Under the pieces are notes generated by a model. It ran no database searches. It had not been told where the DNA came from and worked only from the letters and a program-made list of their open reading frames with translations. A DNA stretch of 26,704 bases from a virus. This document shows positions 3,698-26,704 of this stretch, piece by piece. The position numbers were made by a program, and so were the translations under genes. The stretch lies in IMG/VR virus record IMGVR_UViG_3300025369_000827, positions 1-26,704 of that record; one strand, written 5' to 3'. Every line of letters starts with the position of its first letter. The stretch's first letter is position 1.

Positions 3698-4399
3698 ATG
3701 CAGATTCAAGAACTATCAATTGATCCAAATCCTCATCACCACGAACTAAATCCAGTTCTTTGGGAAAATAATAGCCTACGTATAGAAATACGTGTTAAAC
3801 TATTGCAAATTGCCCGACACTTTGCAGACTATCTAAATGTATCTAAACTAAACTTAAAAGATGTAACTATCAGCGGATCCAGCGCTGGCTATAATTATAG
3901 TCCATACAGTGATATAGATTTACACCTTGTAGTTACTAAGACCAATGGCAACGATGAGTTATTTACTGCTAAAAAGAATCTTTATAACAACGAACACAAT
4001 CTAGCTATCAAAGGTATTCCTGTAGAACTATATGTACAGCCAGCAAATCAAATACATCACAGTGCAGGCATTTATAGTGTTTTGCATAATGAATGGATCA
4101 ATGAACCTGAACATGTAGAACCTACCGTTGATAGCAGGGATATCAAAGCAAAAGCTCGCAATTATGCGGCTAAAATCAATCTAGCTATGCGAAGCCAGGA
4201 CTTAGATAAATGCCGACAAGCCATGGACGAACTAAAAAGATTACGCAGAGCTGGGTTAGAATCTGATGGCGAACAAAGTGTAGAAAACTTAGCTTTCAAA
4301 TTACTCAGAGCTCGTGGACAAATTGAAAAATTGCGTAAATACATAACTAAACTAGAAAGTGCTCAGTTGAGCATTGGAGAAAATAATGAAAATAGATGA
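3698..4399 (+). CDS. Nucleotidyltransferase-domain protein, 233 aa
   Basis: Residues about 58-80 read TISGSSAGYNYSPYSDIDLH, the G-S...D-x-D core of the polymerase-beta-type (MJ0435/DUF4269-like) nucleotidyltransferases. A following PVELYV strand could hold the third acidic residue. The C-terminal third is helical and basic. It probably transfers a nucleotide; the target is unknown. The protein begins MQIQELSIDP, similar to the starts of several neighbours (5585, 6260, 26441). This may be an N-terminal capsid-targeting peptide, which would make it an internal virion protein. It overlaps the next gene by 14 bases and has no Shine-Dalgarno. Confidence 0.7.
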   Translation: MQIQELSIDPNPHHHELNPVLWENNSLRIEIRVKLLQIARHFADYLNVSKLNLKDVTISGSSAGYNYSPYSDIDLHLVVTKTNGNDELFTAKKNLYNNEHNLAIKGIPVELYVQPANQIHHSAGIYSVLHNEWINEPEHVEPTVDSRDIKAKARNYAAKINLAMRSQDLDKCRQAMDELKRLRRAGLESDGEQSVENLAFKLLRARGQIEKLRKYITKLESAQLSIGENNENR

Positions 4400-5588
4400 C
4401 ATTGTCGAACACGCTAAAGGCCGCAGAGCTAAGATTTATACTCGTAAGCCTAAACACACTATTGAGCCACATAAACCGCAAGCTCCAGTAGGACCAATGT
4501 CAGAAACTGAAGTTACTTTAAAACCAATGCCAGGCGCACAGGAAGTGGATGTAGACGGTAAATCAGTCGGTACAGCTACTACACCGCAAGCCGCAACAGC
4601 CATTAGCGATTTGGCTAAGAAAGGCGAATTTACTCCGAACACAAGTGATAGCCAACAACCTGCTCCAATGGAAGAAGAACATGACGAGCATCCAGAAACT
4701 GCTAAACATTACAATGATTGGATGAATAGCGAGCATGCTCCGCACGACAGTGATAGCGGAGATGATAATACAGTATTTCACAAAGCCTTACATTTTTTAT
4801 CAGGTAAAGTGCATCCAGGCGATATGGAATATCACGCACATCACATGGCTAAAAAGTTTCATAGCGGCCTAGATGAAAAACACAACCATCACGGTGTCGA
4901 CTCTCACGGTGATGTAGGCGGAGACGCCACAGACAGTTTGTTAAGTCAAATCAAAGCAGAGCCAGAAGATGCAATAGGACATGGATACAAAATGTACGAA
5001 ATGAATAGAATTAAACAATTAGCTGGATTAAATGAAGCAGAACAACCTGCTCCAGCTCCAACAACAACTGCTATTGTTCCAGCAGCCGATGTTGATCCAG
5101 CTAAAACTGCCTTGCAATCTACACAAATAGATCCAGAAATGATGCAACAAGTCGAAGACAACACAGTACATGATGCAGAAGGTGATGTAGATCTTTCAGC
5201 AACATTTCAAAAAATAGCAGATCAAATACCTGCTGAACCACAGATCCGTGCAGAGTGGGCAGAAGCATTCAAAAAGTTTGACGAGCGATTCAGTCACATT
5301 GAACAAGACCCTGAGTTTATGAAAATGAGTCCGGAAGATCAAGTCAAATGTAAACAAGACGTTCAAGAAGTTAGAGCTTTGTTCCAACAGTTTATGGAAT
5401 TTGCAGTGCAAATGTCTAACGGAATGAAAACAGCGGCAACTGATATTAACAAGGCTACACAGCAACCTGGGTACCAAAATCCATTAAAAGGTGTGAAGAC
5501 TTTGGCTCCACAACAAACACCACCGGTACAAGAAACTGCCGATGATCGTTTATTAAAACAAATGTTGTCAATTGCTGGCTTAAGATGA
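4386..5588 (+). CDS. Probable internal/head-associated protein, 400 aa
   Basis: Low-complexity protein rich in Glu, Pro, Gln and His. It begins MKIDDIVEHAKGRRAKIYTR, has a His/Asp-rich middle (around residues 95-180), the segment MNRIKQLAGLNEAEQ near residue 208, a Pro/Ala linker, and a C-terminal helix ending LLKQMLSIAGLR. LNE|A fits the L/I-x-E cleavage pattern of the T4 prohead protease gp21, and the N-terminus resembles a capsid-targeting peptide. I infer a scaffold-associated or packaged internal protein. The ATG at 4386 has GGAG at 4376-4379; the upstream TTG in frame is rejected. It overlaps neighbours on both sides. Confidence 0.6.
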   Translation: MKIDDIVEHAKGRRAKIYTRKPKHTIEPHKPQAPVGPMSETEVTLKPMPGAQEVDVDGKSVGTATTPQAATAISDLAKKGEFTPNTSDSQQPAPMEEEHDEHPETAKHYNDWMNSEHAPHDSDSGDDNTVFHKALHFLSGKVHPGDMEYHAHHMAKKFHSGLDEKHNHHGVDSHGDVGGDATDSLLSQIKAEPEDAIGHGYKMYEMNRIKQLAGLNEAEQPAPAPTTTAIVPAADVDPAKTALQSTQIDPEMMQQVEDNTVHDAEGDVDLSATFQKIADQIPAEPQIRAEWAEAFKKFDERFSHIEQDPEFMKMSPEDQVKCKQDVQEVRALFQQFMEFAVQMSNGMKTAATDINKATQQPGYQNPLKGVKTLAPQQTPPVQETADDRLLKQMLSIAGLR

Positions 5589-6259: not shown

Positions 6260-7255
6260 ATGCAAATTAGAGAACTATCAAAGCCTGTTACAAGTAAAAA
6301 GCTAAACGAAAGCCTAGCTAAGAAATTTGGCTACCAGTTAAATCTAGCAAAGTTTACAGAAGCTCAGTTAGAAGATGTACGTAACAAACTACGTACTGAT
6401 ATGAGCCAACTTGAAGTAAATGAAAGTTTTGACAATTTGCAAGAACACCCAGCATATCAAAAGACTCGTGCATTGCTAGATGTTATCAATCAGGAAATTA
6501 TGGAACGTGAAGAAGGCAAGTGTCCAACATGCCATTGCGAACCATGCGAGTGCAAAGATGAAGAGCACGATCATAAGGCAGAGAAAAAAGAAGCTATGCG
6601 TAAAAAACTACAAGCTAGTAAAATGAAAGAAAAGGCTATGGAGCACAGCGTTCCAGCTAACTGGATTCGTAGTGCTATTCAACGTATTGAACTAGGCGAA
6701 TCAGACGAAGAAGAATTAACAGCAGAACTAACTACACGTTACGATCTAAACGAAAATACAGCAAACTATATTGTATACCTAGCAGAAGGCGAACAAGATA
6801 AAGCCGAAATTATTATGGCAACAAAAGATATGGTCGACCGTATCACAGGCTGGCTAGAAGATACTGCTCAATTGAAGACAGAAAACTTACTAGAACTTAC
6901 AGACTCTATAAGAGAAGCACTAGGCAGCGATGTTGCGCAACAATATTCAGAACAAGTTAAATCAGCACTAGAGGCAGTGTTCTCAGCATTAGAACAAAGT
7001 CGTGGCGGATTGCAAGGCGCATTGGCATTAGTATCAGGCGGTGAAGCTCCTACTATGGGAGCACCAGCTGGCGGTATGGGTGCAGAGCCTGCAATGGGTG
7101 GAGCACCAGCAATGGGTGGAGCACCTGAGGAAGCTGGACTTCCTCCAGAGGAAGAAGAAGTTCCTATGGCAGGCGGTGCCGCTGGCCGTGAAAAACGTGA
7201 AAGCGTTGATTACAGCCGCAGACTAGGCATTTTGTTAAACTCAAAAAAAAAGTAA
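6260..7255 (+). CDS. Putative prohead core/virion-associated protein, 331 aa, zero-frame product
   Basis: Starts MQIRELSKPVTSKKLNESLA. It has a small Cys/His cluster near residue 90-100 (CPTCHCEPCEC) that could bind zinc, a helical acidic middle, a long helical segment (about 190-255), a Met/Gly/Ala/Pro-rich repeat region (about 265-305, GGAPAMGGAP type) and a basic end. This resembles internal scaffold-like proteins of marine T4-like phages; the assignment is inference. The zero frame stops at TAA 7253-7255 directly after A AAA AAG. A -1 shift there would add 113 residues (see 7252-7593), giving a 444-aa product. Confidence 0.65.
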   Translation: MQIRELSKPVTSKKLNESLAKKFGYQLNLAKFTEAQLEDVRNKLRTDMSQLEVNESFDNLQEHPAYQKTRALLDVINQEIMEREEGKCPTCHCEPCECKDEEHDHKAEKKEAMRKKLQASKMKEKAMEHSVPANWIRSAIQRIELGESDEEELTAELTTRYDLNENTANYIVYLAEGEQDKAEIIMATKDMVDRITGWLEDTAQLKTENLLELTDSIREALGSDVAQQYSEQVKSALEAVFSALEQSRGGLQGALALVSGGEAPTMGAPAGGMGAEPAMGGAPAMGGAPEEAGLPPEEEEVPMAGGAAGREKRESVDYSRRLGILLNSKKK

Positions 7256-7303
7256 TCCTTGAAGCGTTAGGCACAGAGCCCTTAGAAGATGTTCTTTGGG
7301 CTC
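7246..7303 (+). promoter_or_regulatory. Candidate -1 ribosomal frameshift signal
   Basis: A AAA AAG (7246-7252), the best-known bacterial -1 slippery heptamer (as in E. coli dnaX), sits within a run of nine A and is followed at once by the zero-frame TAA. Downstream, GAGCCC (7276-7281) pairs with GGGCTC (7298-7303) and the inner AGAA with TTCT around a GATG loop. The 23-base spacer is longer than in typical stimulators. Confidence 0.6.
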
Positions 7304-7593
7304 TTCAAAGTGATGCCAACAACCAACACATTCCTACAGAATTAGACTGGCGAGCACTTGCAGTTGAACTACAGTCACGACAAGCGCCTGTAGTTGGATA
7401 TGATCAGTTCGACGCTCGTTGGAACGATCCAGAGGAAGGTCCTATCCTAAAGAAATATGTTCAGCGTTATGACGGCCATGGTCTGGTATTGAAGACAGAT
7501 GCTAACAGCGATGAAATGGGAGACGGCGAAGAACAAGGTCCAGACTTAGTAGCCAAAATGGCTAAAAGTGCAACTGATAAAGCAATGAAATAG
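7252..7593 (+). CDS. -1 frame extension of the 6260 gene, 113 aa, no start codon
   Basis: From GTA at 7252 the -1 frame is open for 113 codons to TAG 7591-7593. It begins VILEALGTEPLEDVLWALQS and contains QAPVVGYDQFDARWNDPEEG and an acidic, Lys-containing tail. The frame is open back to a TGA at about 7205-7210, and between that and the codons for DEMGDG near 7515 there is no ATG, GTG or TTG apart from a TTG near 7490. It is clearly protein-like, so it is probably reached from the 6260 gene by frameshifting. Alternatively the A9 tract has lost one base in this assembly, because ten A residues would join the frames. Confidence 0.7.
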   Translation, partial: VILEALGTEPLEDVLWALQSDANNQHIPTELDWRALAVELQSRQAPVVGYDQFDARWNDPEEGPILKKYVQRYDGHGLVLKTDANSDEMGDGEEQGPDLVAKMAKSATDKAMK

Positions 7594-8373: not shown

Positions 8374-10275
8374 ATGGCCGTTGTACAGATAAGCAGAATA
8401 CAAGTTAGACGTGGCAAAATTAATAGTGGTACTGGATTACCACAGTTAGCCAGCGGCGAATTAGCATGGTCCGTAGACAGTCAAGAATTGTTTATTGGCA
8501 ATGGTGCAGTAAGTGAAGGTGCACCTGCTGTTGGCAATACTAAAATTATTACAGTTAACGATTTAAATTTCAACAATAATTTGTTGAATATTATACAGTA
8601 TTTGTATAAGGCTAACGATACAACAATACAAACTGGCCCAACAGCTAACAATCCAGTATTACGCCAATTACAAGATTGGATGGATGATCACACTAATGCT
8701 AAAGCATTTGGCGCAGCCGCCGATGGCATCACTGATGACACTTCAGCATTGCAAAGAGCAGTTAATCAACTATTTCTAAACCCAGCTACTAAAGCTAGTG
8801 CCAACACTGCCGCTGGATATACAAATCGCCGTGTCTTAGAATTACCTGCTGGAAAATACTATACATCTAGTCCTATATTTTTACCGAGCTTTACAACAAT
8901 AGTTGGAGCTGGTGTAGATAAAACTTTGATTTATTACGATCCGGTTAGTACAATAACAGCAACTACTTTGTCTTTAAATAAAACAGTTGTTACAACTTCA
9001 GCTACTACATCAATGATAGGAGCAACTATTACTGGTACTGGAATTCCTGCAGGAACTACTGTAGTATCTGTAGTAGCAGGTACAAGTTTGTATCTTAGTG
9101 CGTATACTACAAGCGGAGTAACTGCCGGTTCATTCACCATTACTTTATCAGGCGCGGCATTTCAAACTGTAAATGATTATAGCACTATAGGATCTCCTAG
9201 TCCATTAAGCGCAACTGACAGCGGTACGCAAACACGTGGTATAAGTGTTAGCAATTTATCAATAACTACACCTACAGGTATCAATGCATGTTTACAACTG
9301 GATGCAGTACGTGATAGTACATTTGAAAATTTACATTTAGTTGGAACTTGGGGAACTGTGTTCAACGCTTCTAGTTCAGGTATTGTTTTAAATGCACTAA
9401 GTTCTTTAATAACATGCGAACACAACATTTTTAAAAATATTAAGTTTGAAAGTTTTACCTATGGTGTATTTTCAAATCAAGACATTCTTAATAACCTATT
9501 TGAAGATTGTTTAGTAACTGATACATATCAAGGATTCAGTTTGGGAACAGGATCTAACGGTAGTAGTGTTGGACAACAATATGGTCCTAGAGAAACTACT
9601 ATAACTACAACAAAATTTATTAATATAAAACGACATGCAGTTTACATAGAGTTTGGCACAGGAAATACTACTGACAATTGTAGATATTACAATGTAGGAT
9701 GTAACGGAGGTGGTAATGCATTATACGCTACTTATCCGCAAGTATACTTTGCAACTTATGGCAATACTAGTATAAATGATAGGTCAGATAGAGTTGACGA
9801 TTTATCCACACTTAACTTAACTACTTTATATAAACCTGAAATATCAGGACACGCAATTTATACATTACATGGTTGGAAGGAAATTACACTAGGATATATT
9901 ACTACTCCGGTACTAGCTTTTAGATTACCGGTGGGCACTGATTTGGCTGGAGTACCAACTGGGTCTATTACACATACTATCGATTATGTGTATACTAGTA
10001 CAACAAATAATTTTAGTCGTAAAGGTGTAATGACTATCACTGGAAATATTGCTAATGGCTTAATACAATTAAGCGATGAGTTTGATTTTGTTGGAACTGA
10101 TATTGATGGATCTAAACAATTACTATTAGATTTTACAGCCAGCTATATCGATGCTAGCGGAGCGCCATACACAGGTGCCGCCGGCCAAGTACCAAATACT
10201 ATTACAGTATACTATACCAATAATTATTCTGCCGATACCGGCACGTTTAACTATCGTCGTACCACTTCATTATAA
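8374..10275 (+). CDS. Tail spike/fibre with Mtd-like N-terminus and pectate-lyase-type beta-helix, 633 aa
   Basis: Residues about 1-55 (ISRIQVRRG...LASGELAWSVDSQELFIGNG) match the pattern of the major-tropism-determinant N-terminal attachment domain. From about residue 108, AKAFGAAADGITDDTSALQR is the signature start of a pectate-lyase-3/right-handed beta-helix, followed by LELPAGKYY. The beta-helix probably binds or cleaves surface polysaccharide. At about residues 193-260 a Thr/Ser-rich Ig-like segment with GTGIPAGTTVVSV interrupts the helix. The C-terminus is beta-rich and may trimerise. It is preceded by a late-type promoter, consistent with a structural role. Confidence 0.82.
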   Translation: MAVVQISRIQVRRGKINSGTGLPQLASGELAWSVDSQELFIGNGAVSEGAPAVGNTKIITVNDLNFNNNLLNIIQYLYKANDTTIQTGPTANNPVLRQLQDWMDDHTNAKAFGAAADGITDDTSALQRAVNQLFLNPATKASANTAAGYTNRRVLELPAGKYYTSSPIFLPSFTTIVGAGVDKTLIYYDPVSTITATTLSLNKTVVTTSATTSMIGATITGTGIPAGTTVVSVVAGTSLYLSAYTTSGVTAGSFTITLSGAAFQTVNDYSTIGSPSPLSATDSGTQTRGISVSNLSITTPTGINACLQLDAVRDSTFENLHLVGTWGTVFNASSSGIVLNALSSLITCEHNIFKNIKFESFTYGVFSNQDILNNLFEDCLVTDTYQGFSLGTGSNGSSVGQQYGPRETTITTTKFINIKRHAVYIEFGTGNTTDNCRYYNVGCNGGGNALYATYPQVYFATYGNTSINDRSDRVDDLSTLNLTTLYKPEISGHAIYTLHGWKEITLGYITTPVLAFRLPVGTDLAGVPTGSITHTIDYVYTSTTNNFSRKGVMTITGNIANGLIQLSDEFDFVGTDIDGSKQLLLDFTASYIDASGAPYTGAAGQVPNTITVYYTNNYSADTGTFNYRRTTSL

Positions 10276-15986: not shown

Positions 15987-16367
15987 ATGGCATATAGCGA
16001 CAAAGTAATCGATCATTACGAGAACCCACGTAATGTAGGATCTTTTGATAAGAATGATCCTACAGTGGGTACTGGTATGGTCGGTGCACCTGCTTGCGGT
16101 GATGTCATGAAACTACAAATAAAGGTAGATGAAGATGGTATTATTAGAGATGCTCGTTTCAAGACATACGGATGTGGAAGTGCAATCGCCAGTTCTAGCT
16201 TGGTCACAGAATGGCTCAAAGGAAAAACGTTGGACGAGGCGGGAAGTATTAAAAACAGCGACATCGCCGAAGAGTTGGCTCTTCCACCTGTTAAAATTCA
16301 CTGCTCAATCCTCGCAGAAGACGCAGTAAAGGCCGCAATCAATGATTACCGTAACCGACAAAGCTAA
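15987..16367 (+). CDS. iscU: Iron-sulfur cluster scaffold protein IscU
   Basis: Scaffold on which the cysteine desulfurase builds [2Fe-2S] clusters before transfer. All functional residues are present: Cys37 and Asp39 (PACGD), Cys63 (YGCGSA), His105 and Cys106 (KIHCS), and the HscA-recognition motif LPPVK (99-103). The sequence is very close to proteobacterial IscU along its full length, and its length (126 aa) is nearly the same as E. coli IscU. It has no desulfurase or HscAB partner in the window, so it would plug into the host ISC system. It overlaps iscA by 26 bases. Recent acquisition from a host is likely. Confidence 0.96.
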   Translation: MAYSDKVIDHYENPRNVGSFDKNDPTVGTGMVGAPACGDVMKLQIKVDEDGIIRDARFKTYGCGSAIASSSLVTEWLKGKTLDEAGSIKNSDIAEELALPPVKIHCSILAEDAVKAAINDYRNRQS

Positions 16368-16668
16368 GGCTAAGATTAAAGAAAATCTTACCAAACGCGG
16401 CAAGGGCGTCGGTATTCGTATAGGTGTAAGAACTACAGGTTGTAGTGGATTAGCGTATGTGTTAGAGTATGTGGACCAGTACGAAGGAACAGAAGGCATA
16501 ATCAATTATGCTCAAAATGATTTCTGTGTGCTAGTTAGTTTGAAAGATGAACCATACTTAACAGGGCTAACAATGGATTGGGTCCGCAATGGACTCAACG
16601 AAGGATTTGATTTTCAAAATCCAAACGAGCGTGACCGTTGTGGTTGCGGAGAAAGTTTTCGAGTATAA
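16342..16668 (+). CDS. iscA: A-type iron-sulfur carrier protein (IscA/HesB family)
   Basis: Carries Fe-S clusters or iron from the scaffold to target proteins. The three ligand cysteines are present: Cys34 (TTGCSGLAY) and the C-terminal pair Cys100/Cys102 (RCGCGESF). 108 aa is typical. The order iscU-iscA with a 26-base overlap follows bacterial isc operons. It may keep Fe-S supply going during infection for phage or host ferredoxin-dependent enzymes, including the bilin reductase at 25744. Confidence 0.93.
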   Translation: MITVTDKAKAKIKENLTKRGKGVGIRIGVRTTGCSGLAYVLEYVDQYEGTEGIINYAQNDFCVLVSLKDEPYLTGLTMDWVRNGLNEGFDFQNPNERDRCGCGESFRV

Positions 16669-22376: not shown

Positions 22377-22447
22377 GTGCTGAAACGCCGTAAGGGTTTA
22401 GTACATAGGGCATGGTGCCCGAATTTACTTGCTTAATTAAGGAGAAA
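22377..22447 (+). promoter_or_regulatory. Structured dnaK leader, possible translational control element
   Basis: A long hairpin (22377-22404) pairs GTGCT with AGTAC, AAAC with GTTT and CC with GG around a GTAA (GNRA) tetraloop, with two one-base bulges. A second hairpin GGGCA/TGG/TGCCC follows (22408-22420). Then CTTGCTTAATTAAGGAGA holds the Shine-Dalgarno next to a palindrome. The CTTGCTTAA...AAGGAGA end is shared with hsp20. Confidence 0.6.
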
Positions 22448-22450
22448 ATT

Positions 22451-24346
22451 ATGAGCAAAATCATCGGTATCGATTTAGGTACAACAAATAGCTGTGTGGC
22501 AATCTTAGAAAACGGAGTTGCTAAAGTAATTGAAAACAGCGAGGGTGCTAGAACAACACCATCAATCATTGCGTATACAGATAAAGAAATTTTAGTAGGC
22601 GCAACAGCAAAACGACAAGCAGTCACAAACCCAAAGAATACAATTTACGCAAGTAAGCGTTTAATCGGACGTAAGTTCGAAGAACAAGCTGTGCAAAAAG
22701 ACATCGACTTGATGCCATACACTATTATCAAAGCTGATAACGGTGATGCATGGATCGAAGCTAACGGCGAAAAGCTAGCACCACAACAAGTGTCAGCAGA
22801 AGTTCTACGCAAGATGAAAAAGACTGCCGAAGACTATCTAGGCGAAACAGTAACACAAGCGGTTATTACTGTACCAGCTTACTTTAACGATAGCCAACGT
22901 CAAGCAACTAAAGATGCAGGACAAATTGCTGGTTTAGAAGTTCTACGTATTATTAATGAACCAACAGCGGCCGCACTAGCATACGGTGTTGATAAGGCAG
23001 ATAAACGTGATCGTAAGATTGCTGTATATGACTTAGGTGGTGGTACATTTGATATTTCAATTATTGAAATTGCCAACATCGATGGTGATAAACAAATCGA
23101 AGTACTTGCTACTAACGGTGATACATTCCTAGGCGGTGAAGATTTTGACCAAGCTATTATGGATCACTTGGTAGCAGAATTTAAGAAAGAAAATGGTATT
23201 GATCTTAAGACAGACGTACTGGCATTGCAACGTTTAAAAGAAGCCGCAGAAAAGGCCAAGATTGAATTGTCCAGCGCCGCAAGCACTACAGTTAATCTGC
23301 CATACGTTACAGCAGATGCAACCGGTCCTAAGCACATGAACGTAACAATTAGCCGTAGCAAGTTTGAAGCTATGGTCGAAGCATTGATTCAACGTTCAAT
23401 TGAGCCATGCAAAACATGTATGTCCGATGCTAAAGTTACAGCCGCAGACATTGACGAAGTTATCCTAGTTGGTGGACAAACACGTATGCCAGCAGTACAA
23501 GCCGCAGTTGAAAAATTGTTTGGCAAGGCTCCACGTAAGGATGTTAATCCAGATGAAGCGGTTGCCGCAGGTGCCGCAGTACAAGGTGCTGTTCTAGCAG
23601 GCGACAAGACAGACGTATTGTTGTTAGACGTTACACCATTGACCTTGGGTATTGAAACAATGGGCGGTGTGTTTACCAAGTTGATTGCTAAGAACACAAC
23701 TATCCCAACTAAACACAGCCAAACATTTAGTACAGCAGATGATAATCAACCAGCTGTTACAATTAAAGTAGCACAAGGTGAACGTGATTTGTTCAAGTAC
23801 AATAAATTGCTTGGCGAATTCAATCTAGAAGGTATTGATCCTGCTCCACGCGGCATGCCACAAATTGAAGTTACACTTGACATCGATGCTAACGGCATTT
23901 TGAATGTTAGTGCAACTGATAAGAAAACTGGTAAGGCTAACAAGATTACCATTAAGAGTGATTCAGGACTAAGCAAAGAAGATATCGAGCGTATGATTGC
24001 AGAAGCGGAAGCCAATGCTGAATCGGATAAGAAAGCCGCAGAATTAATCAACGCACGTAATAGCGCAGAAAGTCAATTGCACTCAATGGGCAAAGATTTT
24101 GATACGTACAAGGATCAAATCACCGACGAAGAAAAGACTGCATATGAAACAGCAGTCACTAGCGCACGTGATGCGATTGCAGGAGAAGATATCGAAGCTA
24201 TCAATTCTAGCATGAGCAAATTGTTTGAATCAGCAGGCCCAATCTTAACTAAGAAACAAGCCGCTGAAACAGCGCAAGCAACTGATACAACCGGTGCACA
24301 ACCTGCAGAAGGCCAAACAGTTGATGCGGCGTTCAAAGAAGTTTGA
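22451..24346 (+). CDS. dnaK: Chaperone DnaK (Hsp70), full length
   Basis: ATP-driven Hsp70 that folds proteins and releases them on nucleotide exchange. All signatures are present: [10 protein letters not shown] at the N-terminus, [57 protein letters not shown], the linker [16 protein letters not shown], the substrate-binding domain and a C-terminal FKEV end. At 631 aa it is the normal bacterial length, so nothing suggests decay. It has no dnaJ or grpE partner here and must use those of the host. It could also assist IscU (LPPVK motif), which HscA normally serves. The upstream frame extension before ATG 22451 is rejected because of the AAGGAG site. Confidence 0.97.
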
Positions 24347-24371
24347 CACACAGACAGACTAGTAGTATAAT
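24343..24371 (+). promoter_or_regulatory. Consensus sigma70 promoter for hsp20
   Basis: TTGACA (24343-24348, overlapping the dnaK stop), 17 bases, TATAAT (24366-24371). Hsp20 thus can be made independently of dnaK. Confidence 0.88.
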
Positions 24372-24377
24372 AAACGT

Positions 24378-24431
24378 GTAGGGTGCCCATGGTGGGGCCC
24401 TACAGAGTTCTTGCTTAATATAAGGAGACCA
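24378..24431 (+). promoter_or_regulatory. hsp20 leader hairpin and RBS-pairing element, candidate RNA thermometer
   Basis: GTAGGG (24378-24383) pairs with CCCTAC (24398-24403), with an inner CCC/GGG, at the expected mRNA start. Further down, TTCTT (24408-24412) can pair with AAGGA of the Shine-Dalgarno across a 9-base loop, including one G-U pair. This would hide the ribosome site at low temperature. Confidence 0.55.
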
Positions 24432-24433
24432 AA

Positions 24434-24862
24434 ATGTCACAAATGCAACTAAGAACTATTAACCCAGCTGACTTAGCACAGATCAGCAGAGCCCTTGTAG
24501 GATTTGATCAATATTTCAATAATCCTCGATTACAAAACAGCAACTATCCTCCACACAATATTGTGAAGTTTAGTGATAGTGAATATGCTATCGAAGTAGC
24601 AGTAGCAGGGTTCAGTAAAGAAGAAATCACAGTAGAAGTAGACCAAGACCAACTTGTTGTTCGCGGTACTCAAAAAGTTTCAGATGAAACTACTAAAGAG
24701 TATTTGCACAAAGGTCTAGCTAGCCGTGATTTTGAACAAACATGGACTTTAGCAGAGTACATGGAAGTCAAGGATGCAGAAGTCAAGGATGGTATGTTGA
24801 TTATTAATATTCAACGAATCATTCCAGATTCACTAAAGCCAAGACAAATCGAAATTAAATAA
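24434..24862 (+). CDS. Small heat-shock protein Hsp20 (IbpA-like), 142 aa
   Basis: Contains the alpha-crystallin domain from about residue 35: NIVKFSDSEYAIEVAVAGFS, KEEITVEVDQDQLVVRG, then EYLHKGLASRDFEQTWTLAE and the closing GMLIINIQRIIPDSLKPRQI. It holds unfolded proteins for DnaK. Length and domain layout match bacterial IbpA. Its own sigma70 promoter, leader structure and terminator-like hairpin make it an independent unit. Hsp20 genes are known in cyanophages and other marine phages. Confidence 0.93.
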   Translation: MSQMQLRTINPADLAQISRALVGFDQYFNNPRLQNSNYPPHNIVKFSDSEYAIEVAVAGFSKEEITVEVDQDQLVVRGTQKVSDETTKEYLHKGLASRDFEQTWTLAEYMEVKDAEVKDGMLIINIQRIIPDSLKPRQIEIK

Positions 24863-24868
24863 TCAACC

Positions 24869-24886
24869 GGGGGAGGAAACTCCCCC
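24869..24886 (+). terminator. Strong hairpin after hsp20
   Basis: GGGGGAG / GAAA / CTCCCCC is a perfect 7-bp GC-rich stem with a GNRA tetraloop, followed by TCTT only. It may be a partial terminator or an mRNA-stabilising element before clpS. Confidence 0.55.
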
Positions 24887-24906
24887 TCTTAATAGAAAGA
24901 GAAAAC

Positions 24907-25209
24907 ATGTCGACAACTGATATCCAATTAGAAGAAAAGATTAAAGTAGTAATCAGTGAACCTAAGCGTTGGAAAGTAATCCTATTGAACGATGATTCCA
25001 CCCCAATGGAATTTGTAATATCATTGTTGATGGAAGTTTTTAGACATAACGAAAACACAGCCCGAGATATCATGCTTCAAATACACGAGCAAGGTAGCGG
25101 TGTTGCTGGAACATATAGTTTTGAAATTGCCGAAGCTAAAGCAGTAGAAGCTACAAATGCGGCAAGAACTAACAACCATCCTTTACAAATTAAATTGGAA
25201 GAAGAATGA
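24907..25209 (+). CDS. clpS: ClpS-like adaptor of the ClpAP protease, 100 aa
   Basis: Residues about 20-95 have the ClpS fold pattern: WKVILLNDDSTPMEFVISLL (Asn-Asp-Asp and Met lining the N-degron pocket), FRHNENTARDIMLQIHEQGS with the His, and a basic/Ala-rich helix AEAKAVEATNAARTNNHPLQ. ClpS delivers proteins with Leu/Phe/Tyr/Trp N-termini to ClpAP. A phage copy could direct host or phage proteins to the host protease. It overlaps the heme oxygenase gene by 4 bases (ATGA). No separate promoter was identified; it may be read through from hsp20. Confidence 0.88.
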   Translation: MSTTDIQLEEKIKVVISEPKRWKVILLNDDSTPMEFVISLLMEVFRHNENTARDIMLQIHEQGSGVAGTYSFEIAEAKAVEATNAARTNNHPLQIKLEEE

Positions 25210-25757
25210 GTTTACGTGATCTCACTAAAGAAGCACATACTAATGCTGAACGTCAGGAATTTGTAAAAATTCTGTTTTCCGGTAACATGGATCCAAAACT
25301 CTATGCTACATTTTTAAAGAATCAACATCCGTGCTATGAGTTATTAGAAGTATGCGCAATGACACATGGACTACTAAGTGATATGCCCGATGTTCGTAGA
25401 GCTCCTTATATTTTAAGTGACTTTATGGAACTATGGGGATCCGATAGTACTGAAGCACCAAAGATTTGTCCAGTTGTTCAAGAATACTTAGATCACATAA
25501 TGAGTATTAAGCATGATCCCCATAAATTAATGGCACACTTATATGTACGCCATATGGGAGATTTAGCTGGAGGCCAAATGATTGCTAAACGAGTACCTGG
25601 TAGTGGTCGTATGTATCAATTTGAAAATCCTGAAGAAATTAAAACAGCGATTCGTGCTAAAATTAGTGATGATATGGCAGATGAAGCAAATATATGCTTT
25701 GGATTTGCTACCCAACTGTTTAAAGAAATGTTAGAAATTGCCGATGAACTCAAGTAA
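25206..25757 (+). CDS. Heme oxygenase, biliverdin-forming, 183 aa
   Basis: Opens heme to biliverdin, iron and CO using reductant such as ferredoxin. The proximal heme ligand is His11 in LTKEAHTNAER, and the distal helix contains GDLAGGQ. Length is a little below the 200-240 aa of bacterial/cyanobacterial HO-1 because of a short C-terminus. It overlaps clpS (4 bases) and the bilin reductase (14 bases), so its product is passed directly to that enzyme. Similar gene pairs are known in cyanophages and in uncultured marine phages. Confidence 0.92.
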   Translation: MSLRDLTKEAHTNAERQEFVKILFSGNMDPKLYATFLKNQHPCYELLEVCAMTHGLLSDMPDVRRAPYILSDFMELWGSDSTEAPKICPVVQEYLDHIMSIKHDPHKLMAHLYVRHMGDLAGGQMIAKRVPGSGRMYQFENPEEIKTAIRAKISDDMADEANICFGFATQLFKEMLEIADELK

Positions 25758-26430
25758 AGTTTGGGATACTCTAATAAATATTCAACATTTATTGGAGACT
25801 GAGTTTGGCAGGACTGGCACTGAAATCTTTGAGCCTGGAATGGATCGCTTCAATCAGCCTGGCTGGATTAATCGTGTATGGAGTTCTGATCTTTATCGCC
25901 GTGCTCACGTTGACGTGGTTGATGCGAGAGATTCAAAAGGACTCTGGATGATGCATTGTTGCATCTTCCCACATACTCACAACCCTGCTCCTATATTTGG
26001 CTTTGATGTAATAGCTGGCAAGAACAAAATAACTGGTTGTTTTCACGATTTCAGTCCAGCAGGCGATACATTCCATCCTATGATTGAATGGTTTGGTTCT
26101 GAAGTTGCCAAACTAGAATGGCGTAAATCACGTGCTTTGCCTGATTGGGCACAGCGTATTTTTACAGAACACATGGTGGCCGCAGGCAATGTTAGCGATG
26201 AAGCAGAGTTAGATCAGATTACAGAAATGGCTAGAACTACCCTAGCGCATTATTTGGACTCTGTGGGTGAAACTAACCATACTGTAGCAGATACTACCAG
26301 TTTCCAAAACTATTATTGCGATAATCAAAAACAAAATCCACATACTCCCCGAGTTATGGCTAGCTTGGGTTTAAATGAGGACGATGTACACGCATTCATA
26401 CAGGAATGTCTCTTCCCTGAAATAGTATAA
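25744..26430 (+). CDS. Ferredoxin-dependent bilin reductase (PcyX/PebS/PcyA family), 228 aa
   Basis: Reduces biliverdin to a coloured phycobilin with electrons from ferredoxin. The family core is visible: MHCCIFPHTHNPAPIFGFDV (about residues 70-89), with the Asp after FGF, then ITGCFHDFSPAGD, and the C-terminal SFQNYYCDNQKQNPHTPRVM. 228 aa is normal. The host context looks non-cyanobacterial, which fits the PcyX class described from uncultured marine phages that make phycoerythrobilin in one enzyme. PcyX versus PebS or PcyA cannot be settled by eye. ATG 25744 lies inside the heme oxygenase gene. Confidence 0.9.
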   Translation: MNSSKVWDTLINIQHLLETEFGRTGTEIFEPGMDRFNQPGWINRVWSSDLYRRAHVDVVDARDSKGLWMMHCCIFPHTHNPAPIFGFDVIAGKNKITGCFHDFSPAGDTFHPMIEWFGSEVAKLEWRKSRALPDWAQRIFTEHMVAAGNVSDEAELDQITEMARTTLAHYLDSVGETNHTVADTTSFQNYYCDNQKQNPHTPRVMASLGLNEDDVHAFIQECLFPEIV

Positions 26431-26440: not shown

Positions 26441-26704
26441 ATGCATATTTTAGACATTTTATCAGAAGCCAGCCTAGTTTCAGGTGCAAAAAGTTACAGC
26501 TACGGCCATGCTGTTCGTCTCAAGGACAGCCCTACCGCTATGAAAGGCGGAGTACAAAAAATATTAGATGCTGTACCTGGTTTGGAAAACGATGAAAAAT
26601 TAGAATGGATTGATCCCAAATCCGTTAACAAAAAAACAGATGAAATTTATCCAGTAATACTTGGCAGAGGCGGTGATTCATTGTTTTTTAGACGAGCAGA
26701 CAAC
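26441..26704 (+). CDS. Putative internal virion protein with capsid-targeting-like N-terminus, partial
   Basis: The first 88 codons are in the window, with no stop. It begins MHILDILSEASLVSGAKSYS. The first ten residues closely resemble the T4 internal-protein targeting peptide (MKTYQEFIAE|A), with SE|A at the place of the prohead protease cut. The rest is basic and globular. No family recognised. It is preceded by a perfect late promoter and has no Shine-Dalgarno. Confidence 0.65.
   Translation, partial: MHILDILSEASLVSGAKSYSYGHAVRLKDSPTAMKGGVQKILDAVPGLENDEKLEWIDPKSVNKKTDEIYPVILGRGGDSLFFRRADN

Follow-up and report, generated by a model that had tools for sequence, protein, structure and literature searches.

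A deeply conserved candidate −1 frameshift site in a virion-protein gene family of uncultured jumbo phages

Results

Organization of the gene at 6260 to 7593

The window is the whole stretch of viral DNA that was analyzed, 26,704 nucleotides in length (IMG/VR virus record IMGVR_UViG_3300025369_000827, positions 1 to 26,704). It contains a gene whose zero-frame ORF ends directly after a run of A residues and whose −1 frame stays open beyond it (Table 1). The nine A residues lie at 7243 to 7251 and are followed by G7252, the last zero-frame codons being TCA (from 7241) AAA AAA AAG TAA. Two in-phase heptamers overlap here, A AAA AAA at 7243 to 7249 and A AAA AAG at 7246 to 7252, and an initial annotation of the sequence had correctly placed the second of these within the nine A residues. 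The −1 frame opens at 7252 (GTA ATC CTT...) and runs to a TAG stop at 7591 to 7593. A shift at either heptamer would give the same product of 444 amino acids (331 + 113), ...SKKK-VILEALG..., which agrees with the length and the 113 protein-like codons proposed in that annotation; the codons encode a conserved domain. The further claim that the −1 frame has no ATG holds for its first 60 codons, but Met codons do occur late, the first at codon 89. A TTG is found at codon 80, with no possible start earlier; in the window, ATG, GTG, and TTG are all absent from the first 60 −1 codons and from the sequence just upstream. The stem that had been described 23 nt past the heptamer is also present.

Table 1. 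Features of the gene, with coordinates in the window
Feature	Coordinates	Strand	Remarks
Zero-frame ORF, 331 aa	6260..7255	+	Ends TCA AAA AAA AAG TAA
Zero-frame protein	6260..7255	+	Helical virion protein, homologous to RaK2-like virion proteins, phrog_14154
Parts of the zero-frame protein			Long coiled helices, residues 165-258; Gly/Ala/Pro-rich linker, residues ~266-308; C-terminal helix, RESVDYSRRLGILLNSKKK
Leu-Asn-Glu, residues 15-17	6302..6310	+	[LI]NE in every member inspected
Slippery run A9-G	7243..7252	+	Kept in all intact relatives
−1 frame extension, 113 codons + TAG	7252..7593	+	Predicted winged helix and disordered tail
Zero-frame TAA stop abutting the heptamer	7253..7255	+	Position constant across relatives (TAG once)
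Putative stimulatory hairpin	7276..7303	+	GAGCCC 7276-7281 with GGGCTC 7298-7303; inner stem AGAA 7284-7287 with TTCT 7292-7295

Elsewhere in the window, 8374 to 10275 encodes a 633-amino-acid tail-fibre-like protein with an Mtd_N-like start (below the cutoff) and a pectate-lyase-type domain. A bilin-making pair is found at 25206 to 26430, heme oxygenase (PF01126) followed by ferredoxin-dependent bilin reductase (PF05996, 4.6e-16). By reading, 15987 to 16668 and 22412 to 25209 contain apparent host-like chaperone and iron-sulphur genes, with IscU-like, IscA-like, DnaK, Hsp20-like, and ClpS-like ORFs.

The site is retained in more than 100 contigs

Using patterns from the 331-amino-acid protein, none of which spanned the site, we retrieved 80 IMG/VR loci; later IMG/VR searches used the −1 domain alone and then divergent members as seeds. 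In all loci with an intact 3′ end, the zero frame ends (T/C)CA AAA AAA AA(G/A/C) TAA and the −1 frame is open for 100 to 122 codons. The divergent seeds led to a second clade, in which every member carries the site; its zero-frame identity is about 42%, and one of its contigs is 364 kb long. Thus, all intact members of the two clades have an X XXY YYZ heptamer of the type A AAA AA(G/A/C) in zero-frame phase, and every intact relative found keeps this phase, with an A9 or A10 run followed by a stop (TAA; TAG in one case). Relatives are encoded on more than 100 IMG/VR contigs, and 102 distinct 150-nt contexts carry the site. The loci carrying it number 290; many of these come from contigs that were fetched repeatedly, so that distinct contigs are fewer, yet more than 100. 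Two members are incomplete: L065 is truncated by its contig end, and L082 has a frame break upstream but an intact site.

Homopolymers are generally error-prone, and the initial annotation had allowed that the true run might be ten A residues and the homologues a single ORF. The contigs added by the −1-domain search all have the site except one, L162 (positions 1 to 20), where eight A residues instead of nine stand at the very end of the contig, probably as an assembly-edge error. Because many metagenomes, in more than 100 contigs altogether, show the same run and phase, with the stop abutting the run in all, we rejected a sequencing or assembly error and assign it next to no probability. Moreover, the members with ten A residues are AAA-codon variants (AAA-TAA) that still require a shift.

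Both frames are coding, and the run is constrained as nucleotides

Frame statistics were computed on 44 nonredundant members (<90% identity). Across 4,840 codons, not one stop interrupts the −1 frame, whereas the two other frames of this DNA contain 381 and 488; median pN/pS values are about 0.39 (zero-frame part) and about 0.57 (−1 part). In these members, the −1 frame encodes a single conserved domain whose conservation starts at the A run; it is under protein-level selection directly after the site, without a start of its own. On this comparative evidence, both products are almost certainly made and selected.

A separate gene, with the downstream ORF starting alone or by termination-reinitiation, would resemble the situation in cultured RaK2-like phages, which are distant relatives and in which the domain's probable counterpart is its own gene with an ATG. 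The initial annotation had named a close relative with a true start as evidence against a shift; such a start was found solely in those distant phages, which has no bearing on the shift here. No start codon occurs at a conserved place in the −1 frame across relatives, and L013, L041, L050, L054, and L058, like the window, are without ATG, GTG, or TTG in the first 60 −1 codons or just upstream. Separate initiation therefore could not make the domain, whose conservation already begins at the run, and we rejected this very improbable reading for want of an early start codon.

The site is also constrained at the level of its codons. In the 44 members, the codon preceding the run is TCA in 42 of 42 cases of Ser and CCA in both cases of Pro, and the next two Lys codons are AAA in 44 of 44. 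The third codon is AAG in 38, AAC in 4, and AAA in 2; it is mostly AAG, yet AAA is twice as common as AAG among the Lys codons of these genes. AAT never appears there, although replacing AAC by AAT would change no amino acid in either frame. The run is present in all 44; outside it, no A or T run of 9 or more occurs in the remaining 298.5 kb of these loci, against about 18 expected from a first-order chain.

Selection for a downstream hairpin in two clades whose stems are unrelated

We folded the 66 nt after the stop and compared them with a null in which the protein was kept and synonymous codons were redrawn. The 70-nt region of the window folds at −23.1 kcal/mol, and L003, which is identical to the window here, has a z of −3.4 against the synonymous-codon shuffles. 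In the window's clade (clade 1), z is below −2 in 38 of 44 members (mean z, −3.38), whereas control segments upstream or further down the gene, the overlapping segment excepted, have mean z values between 0 and −1. The second clade (clade 2) has z below −2 in 22 of 24 nonredundant members (mean z, −3.5), but related sequences are not independent, and these counts are therefore not probabilities. That unrelated stems recur at one place is a stronger argument than the counts.

The commonest stem of clade 1 is CCCUUAG...CUAAGGG, within the codons for DPLVxTLRAL; other members, including the window, use another register. The common register is 75.7% paired, versus 28 to 48% when it is slid, and the covariation score exceeds that of all 500 shuffles. 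RNAalifold applied to all 44 clade 1 members found no common structure, because the stems lie in different registers. The clade 2 stem, GGUGCGGAU/AUCCGCAUC, is unrelated in sequence to the clade 1 stem, is 97% paired, and shows compensatory double-sided changes, U-A to C-G and G-C to A-U. By these folding and covariation comparisons, the downstream hairpin is selected at the nucleotide level in both clades. It starts 8 nt past the heptamer in clade 2 but at variable distances in clade 1 (23 nt in the window), against a bacterial-type expectation of about 5 to 9 nt.

Six clade 1 members of one subclade (L059, L067, L070, L071, L079, and L080) are without the near hairpin and have one about 82 nt away. 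In L070 (2320 to 2356), this is an 11-bp hairpin, UUGGGGUGCCC/GGGCAUCCCAA, about 82 nt past the stop, and those of L067, L071, L079, and L080 are similar. We found no Shine-Dalgarno-like stimulator upstream of the site.

Ribosomal versus transcriptional slippage

The invariant site, the conserved −1 domain, and the selected and covarying hairpin strongly support the programmed −1 frameshift with 331- and 444-amino-acid products that was first proposed from the window. The proven frameshift motifs of bacteria include A_AAA_AAG, A_AAA_AAA, and A_AAA_AAC (PMC4066793). We consider it highly likely that the gene is decoded by programmed −1 ribosomal frameshifting. The ribosome would reach the tandem heptamers A AAA AAA / A AAA AAG with tRNA-Lys occupying both its P and its A site and would be delayed by the downstream hairpin, perhaps also by slow termination at the abutting UAA. 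The majority of ribosomes would terminate to give the 331-amino-acid protein, and a fraction would slip back one base, read GTA ATC CTT..., and give the 444-amino-acid protein with the winged-helix domain.

The same extension could come from RNA polymerase slipping on A9, so that some mRNAs would have ten (or eight) A residues. Such slippage calls for a homopolymer of at least 8 to 9, which the A9 or A10 of all members provides; a run of nine is long enough, as established, for example, in Thermus thermophilus dnaX (PMC3711429). Also in favor of this reading, the length is always 9 or 10, because the preceding codon always ends in A, and so exceeds by a full codon what one heptamer requires. 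However, the conserved phase, the abutting stop, and the choice of AAG, AAA, or AAC would be needless for a slipping polymerase. Moreover, the hairpin is still untranscribed when the polymerase crosses the run; therefore, that both clades, with their unrelated stems, show selection for it speaks for a ribosomal event. Against the ribosomal reading, the hairpin spacing varies in clade 1 and, at 23 nt in the window, is longer than usual for −1 frameshifting, the hairpin of one subclade lies far from the site, and the upstream Shine-Dalgarno-like stimulator is absent; speculatively, a ribosome stalled while UAA occupies the A site could account for variable spacing. Comparison among relatives establishes that both frames are coding, that the site and stop are invariant, and that the downstream hairpin is selected, and we infer that it is the ribosome rather than RNA polymerase that slips. 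We regard ribosomal slippage as very probably the main route and programmed transcriptional slippage as a distinctly unlikely one; both could contribute together.

Identity and predicted structure of the two parts

The zero-frame protein matches phrog_14154 (PHROGs, E = 7.6e-7; hhalign, P = 96%, E = 4e-9), and its structure model is helical with a disordered linker. Pfam has no match for either part, nor does PHROGs for the window's −1 domain. When both parts were compared directly by tblastn with 50,697 cultured phages, no match came up, and a contig search with a single protein gave just an 11-residue chance match; a divergent member gave a weak lead to XaC1 among the cultured phages.

For the −1 domain, AlphaFold predicted a winged-helix arrangement (115-amino-acid model; pLDDT of about 90 over residues 11 to 85), followed by a disordered tail that ends in a short conserved Ala/Lys motif. 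Comparison with solved structures gave generic winged-helix matches (Z up to 5.5), which are too low for a family name. A BFVD match, A0A2I7S9L4 (118 amino acids, prob 0.90), has the same length as the split-gene protein of Vibrio phage 2.275.O and is a candidate for it.

The Leu-Asn-Glu at residues 15 to 17 fits [LI]xE, the motif cut by the T4-type prohead protease, which suggests, from the sequence motif, a processed head protein. Peptidase_S77 is present in three related large genomes. Among related large contigs, matches to PF07230 (portal), PF07068 (gp23), and PF03420 (prohead protease) assign these phages to the T4-like superfamily of jumbo phages. In the window, the ORFs at 3698 to 4399, 4389 to 5588, 6260 to 7255, and 26441 to 26704 have similar N termini (MQIxEL, MKIDDIVE, MHILDILSE) with an early [LI]xE, and [LI]xE occurs within residues 4 to 20 in 13 of 35 window ORFs versus 15% of internal windows. 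These shared short N termini are possibly head-targeting peptides cut by the prohead protease.

RaK2-like phages probably carry the parts as two genes

The RaK2-like phages share the gene order seen here: a zero-frame homologue, a gene of about 110 amino acids, and a phrog_298-type exonuclease gene. Unlike the single frameshifted gene here, their zero-frame homologue and the probable counterpart of the −1 domain are separate genes, each with a start codon. The phrog_14154 and phrog_15050 pairs are CBB_298/CBB_299, GAP32_293/294, RaK2 ORF135/136, and XaC1_379/380, the second gene encoding a 107- to 118-amino-acid phrog_15050 virion protein with its own ATG. In CBB virions, mass spectrometry detected 10 unique peptides of CBB_298 and 2 of CBB_299 (PMC5259590, Table 4). 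Gene order, length, and a similar C-terminal motif hint that the −1 domain is homologous to the 107-amino-acid phrog_15050 protein, for which the hhalign probabilities (13% and 22%) are weak. In Agrobacterium phage Atu_ph07 (L173, 3402 to 5717), the N-terminal part of a 771-amino-acid virion protein matches the zero-frame family, and the 128-amino-acid ORF that follows might be a counterpart of the −1 domain.

Discussion

Other phage and bacterial systems resemble this gene in part. In the lambda G/GT tail-assembly chaperone, a −1 frameshift near the end of a morphogenesis gene likewise adds a C-terminal domain to a minority of the protein (PMC5009743). Unlike G/GT, the gene here is unrelated in sequence and is not beside tape-measure or major-tail genes, its neighbors being structural-like ORFs, an exonuclease, and RNR; mature virions also lack lambda G and GT, but those of CBB contain the zero-frame homologue. 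We therefore rejected a tail-assembly chaperone identity. Phage A2, going by the citation of Garcia 2004 in PMC10885494, extends its major head protein by frameshifting and, as here, would obtain two virion proteins with a shared N terminus. Unlike the A2 gene as cited there, the present one is not a gp23-type capsid gene, which in the related genome G001 lies at 79.5 to 80.5 kb versus about 305 to 312 kb for the frameshift gene. The A AAA AAG cassettes of IS elements and dnaX have the same heptamer and a downstream stem-loop, and clade 2 has an 8-nt spacer; unlike in those cassettes, there is no Shine-Dalgarno-like stimulator here, the stop abuts the heptamer, and the spacing is longer in the window's clade.

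The initial annotation had suggested that the shift sets a fixed ratio of the two products in a virion or prohead. Homology and the mass spectrometry of phage CBB (PMC5259590) support a virion protein, while the prohead, the product ratio and its being fixed, and the role are what we infer. The likeliest role is that of a processed internal or structural virion protein, a minority of whose copies would carry a winged helix that binds nucleic acid or protein. More tentatively, and with considerable doubt, the frameshift may set the share of an internal head protein that bears a DNA-binding winged helix, giving a few genome-contacting subunits among a larger plain population. Slipping would then occur partly while the A site contains the abutting UAA, so that the ratio would depend on the supply of release factor, and the RaK2-like phages would have met the same need with two genes.

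This is a known kind of recoding; in the literature searched, we found no earlier report of the site and apparently none of frameshifting in this gene family. The finding points to a site of recoding, deeply conserved in a family of virion proteins from uncultured freshwater jumbo phages, outside the tail-chaperone gene in which most annotated phage frameshifts occur. The 113-amino-acid domain would escape ordinary gene callers. About 100 natural variants of the heptamer's third base, the spacer, and the hairpin are available for studies of stimulator evolution. Finally, since relatives probably have the two parts as two genes, the family offers a natural comparison of frameshifted and separate genes in how protein ratios are set in a giant phage.
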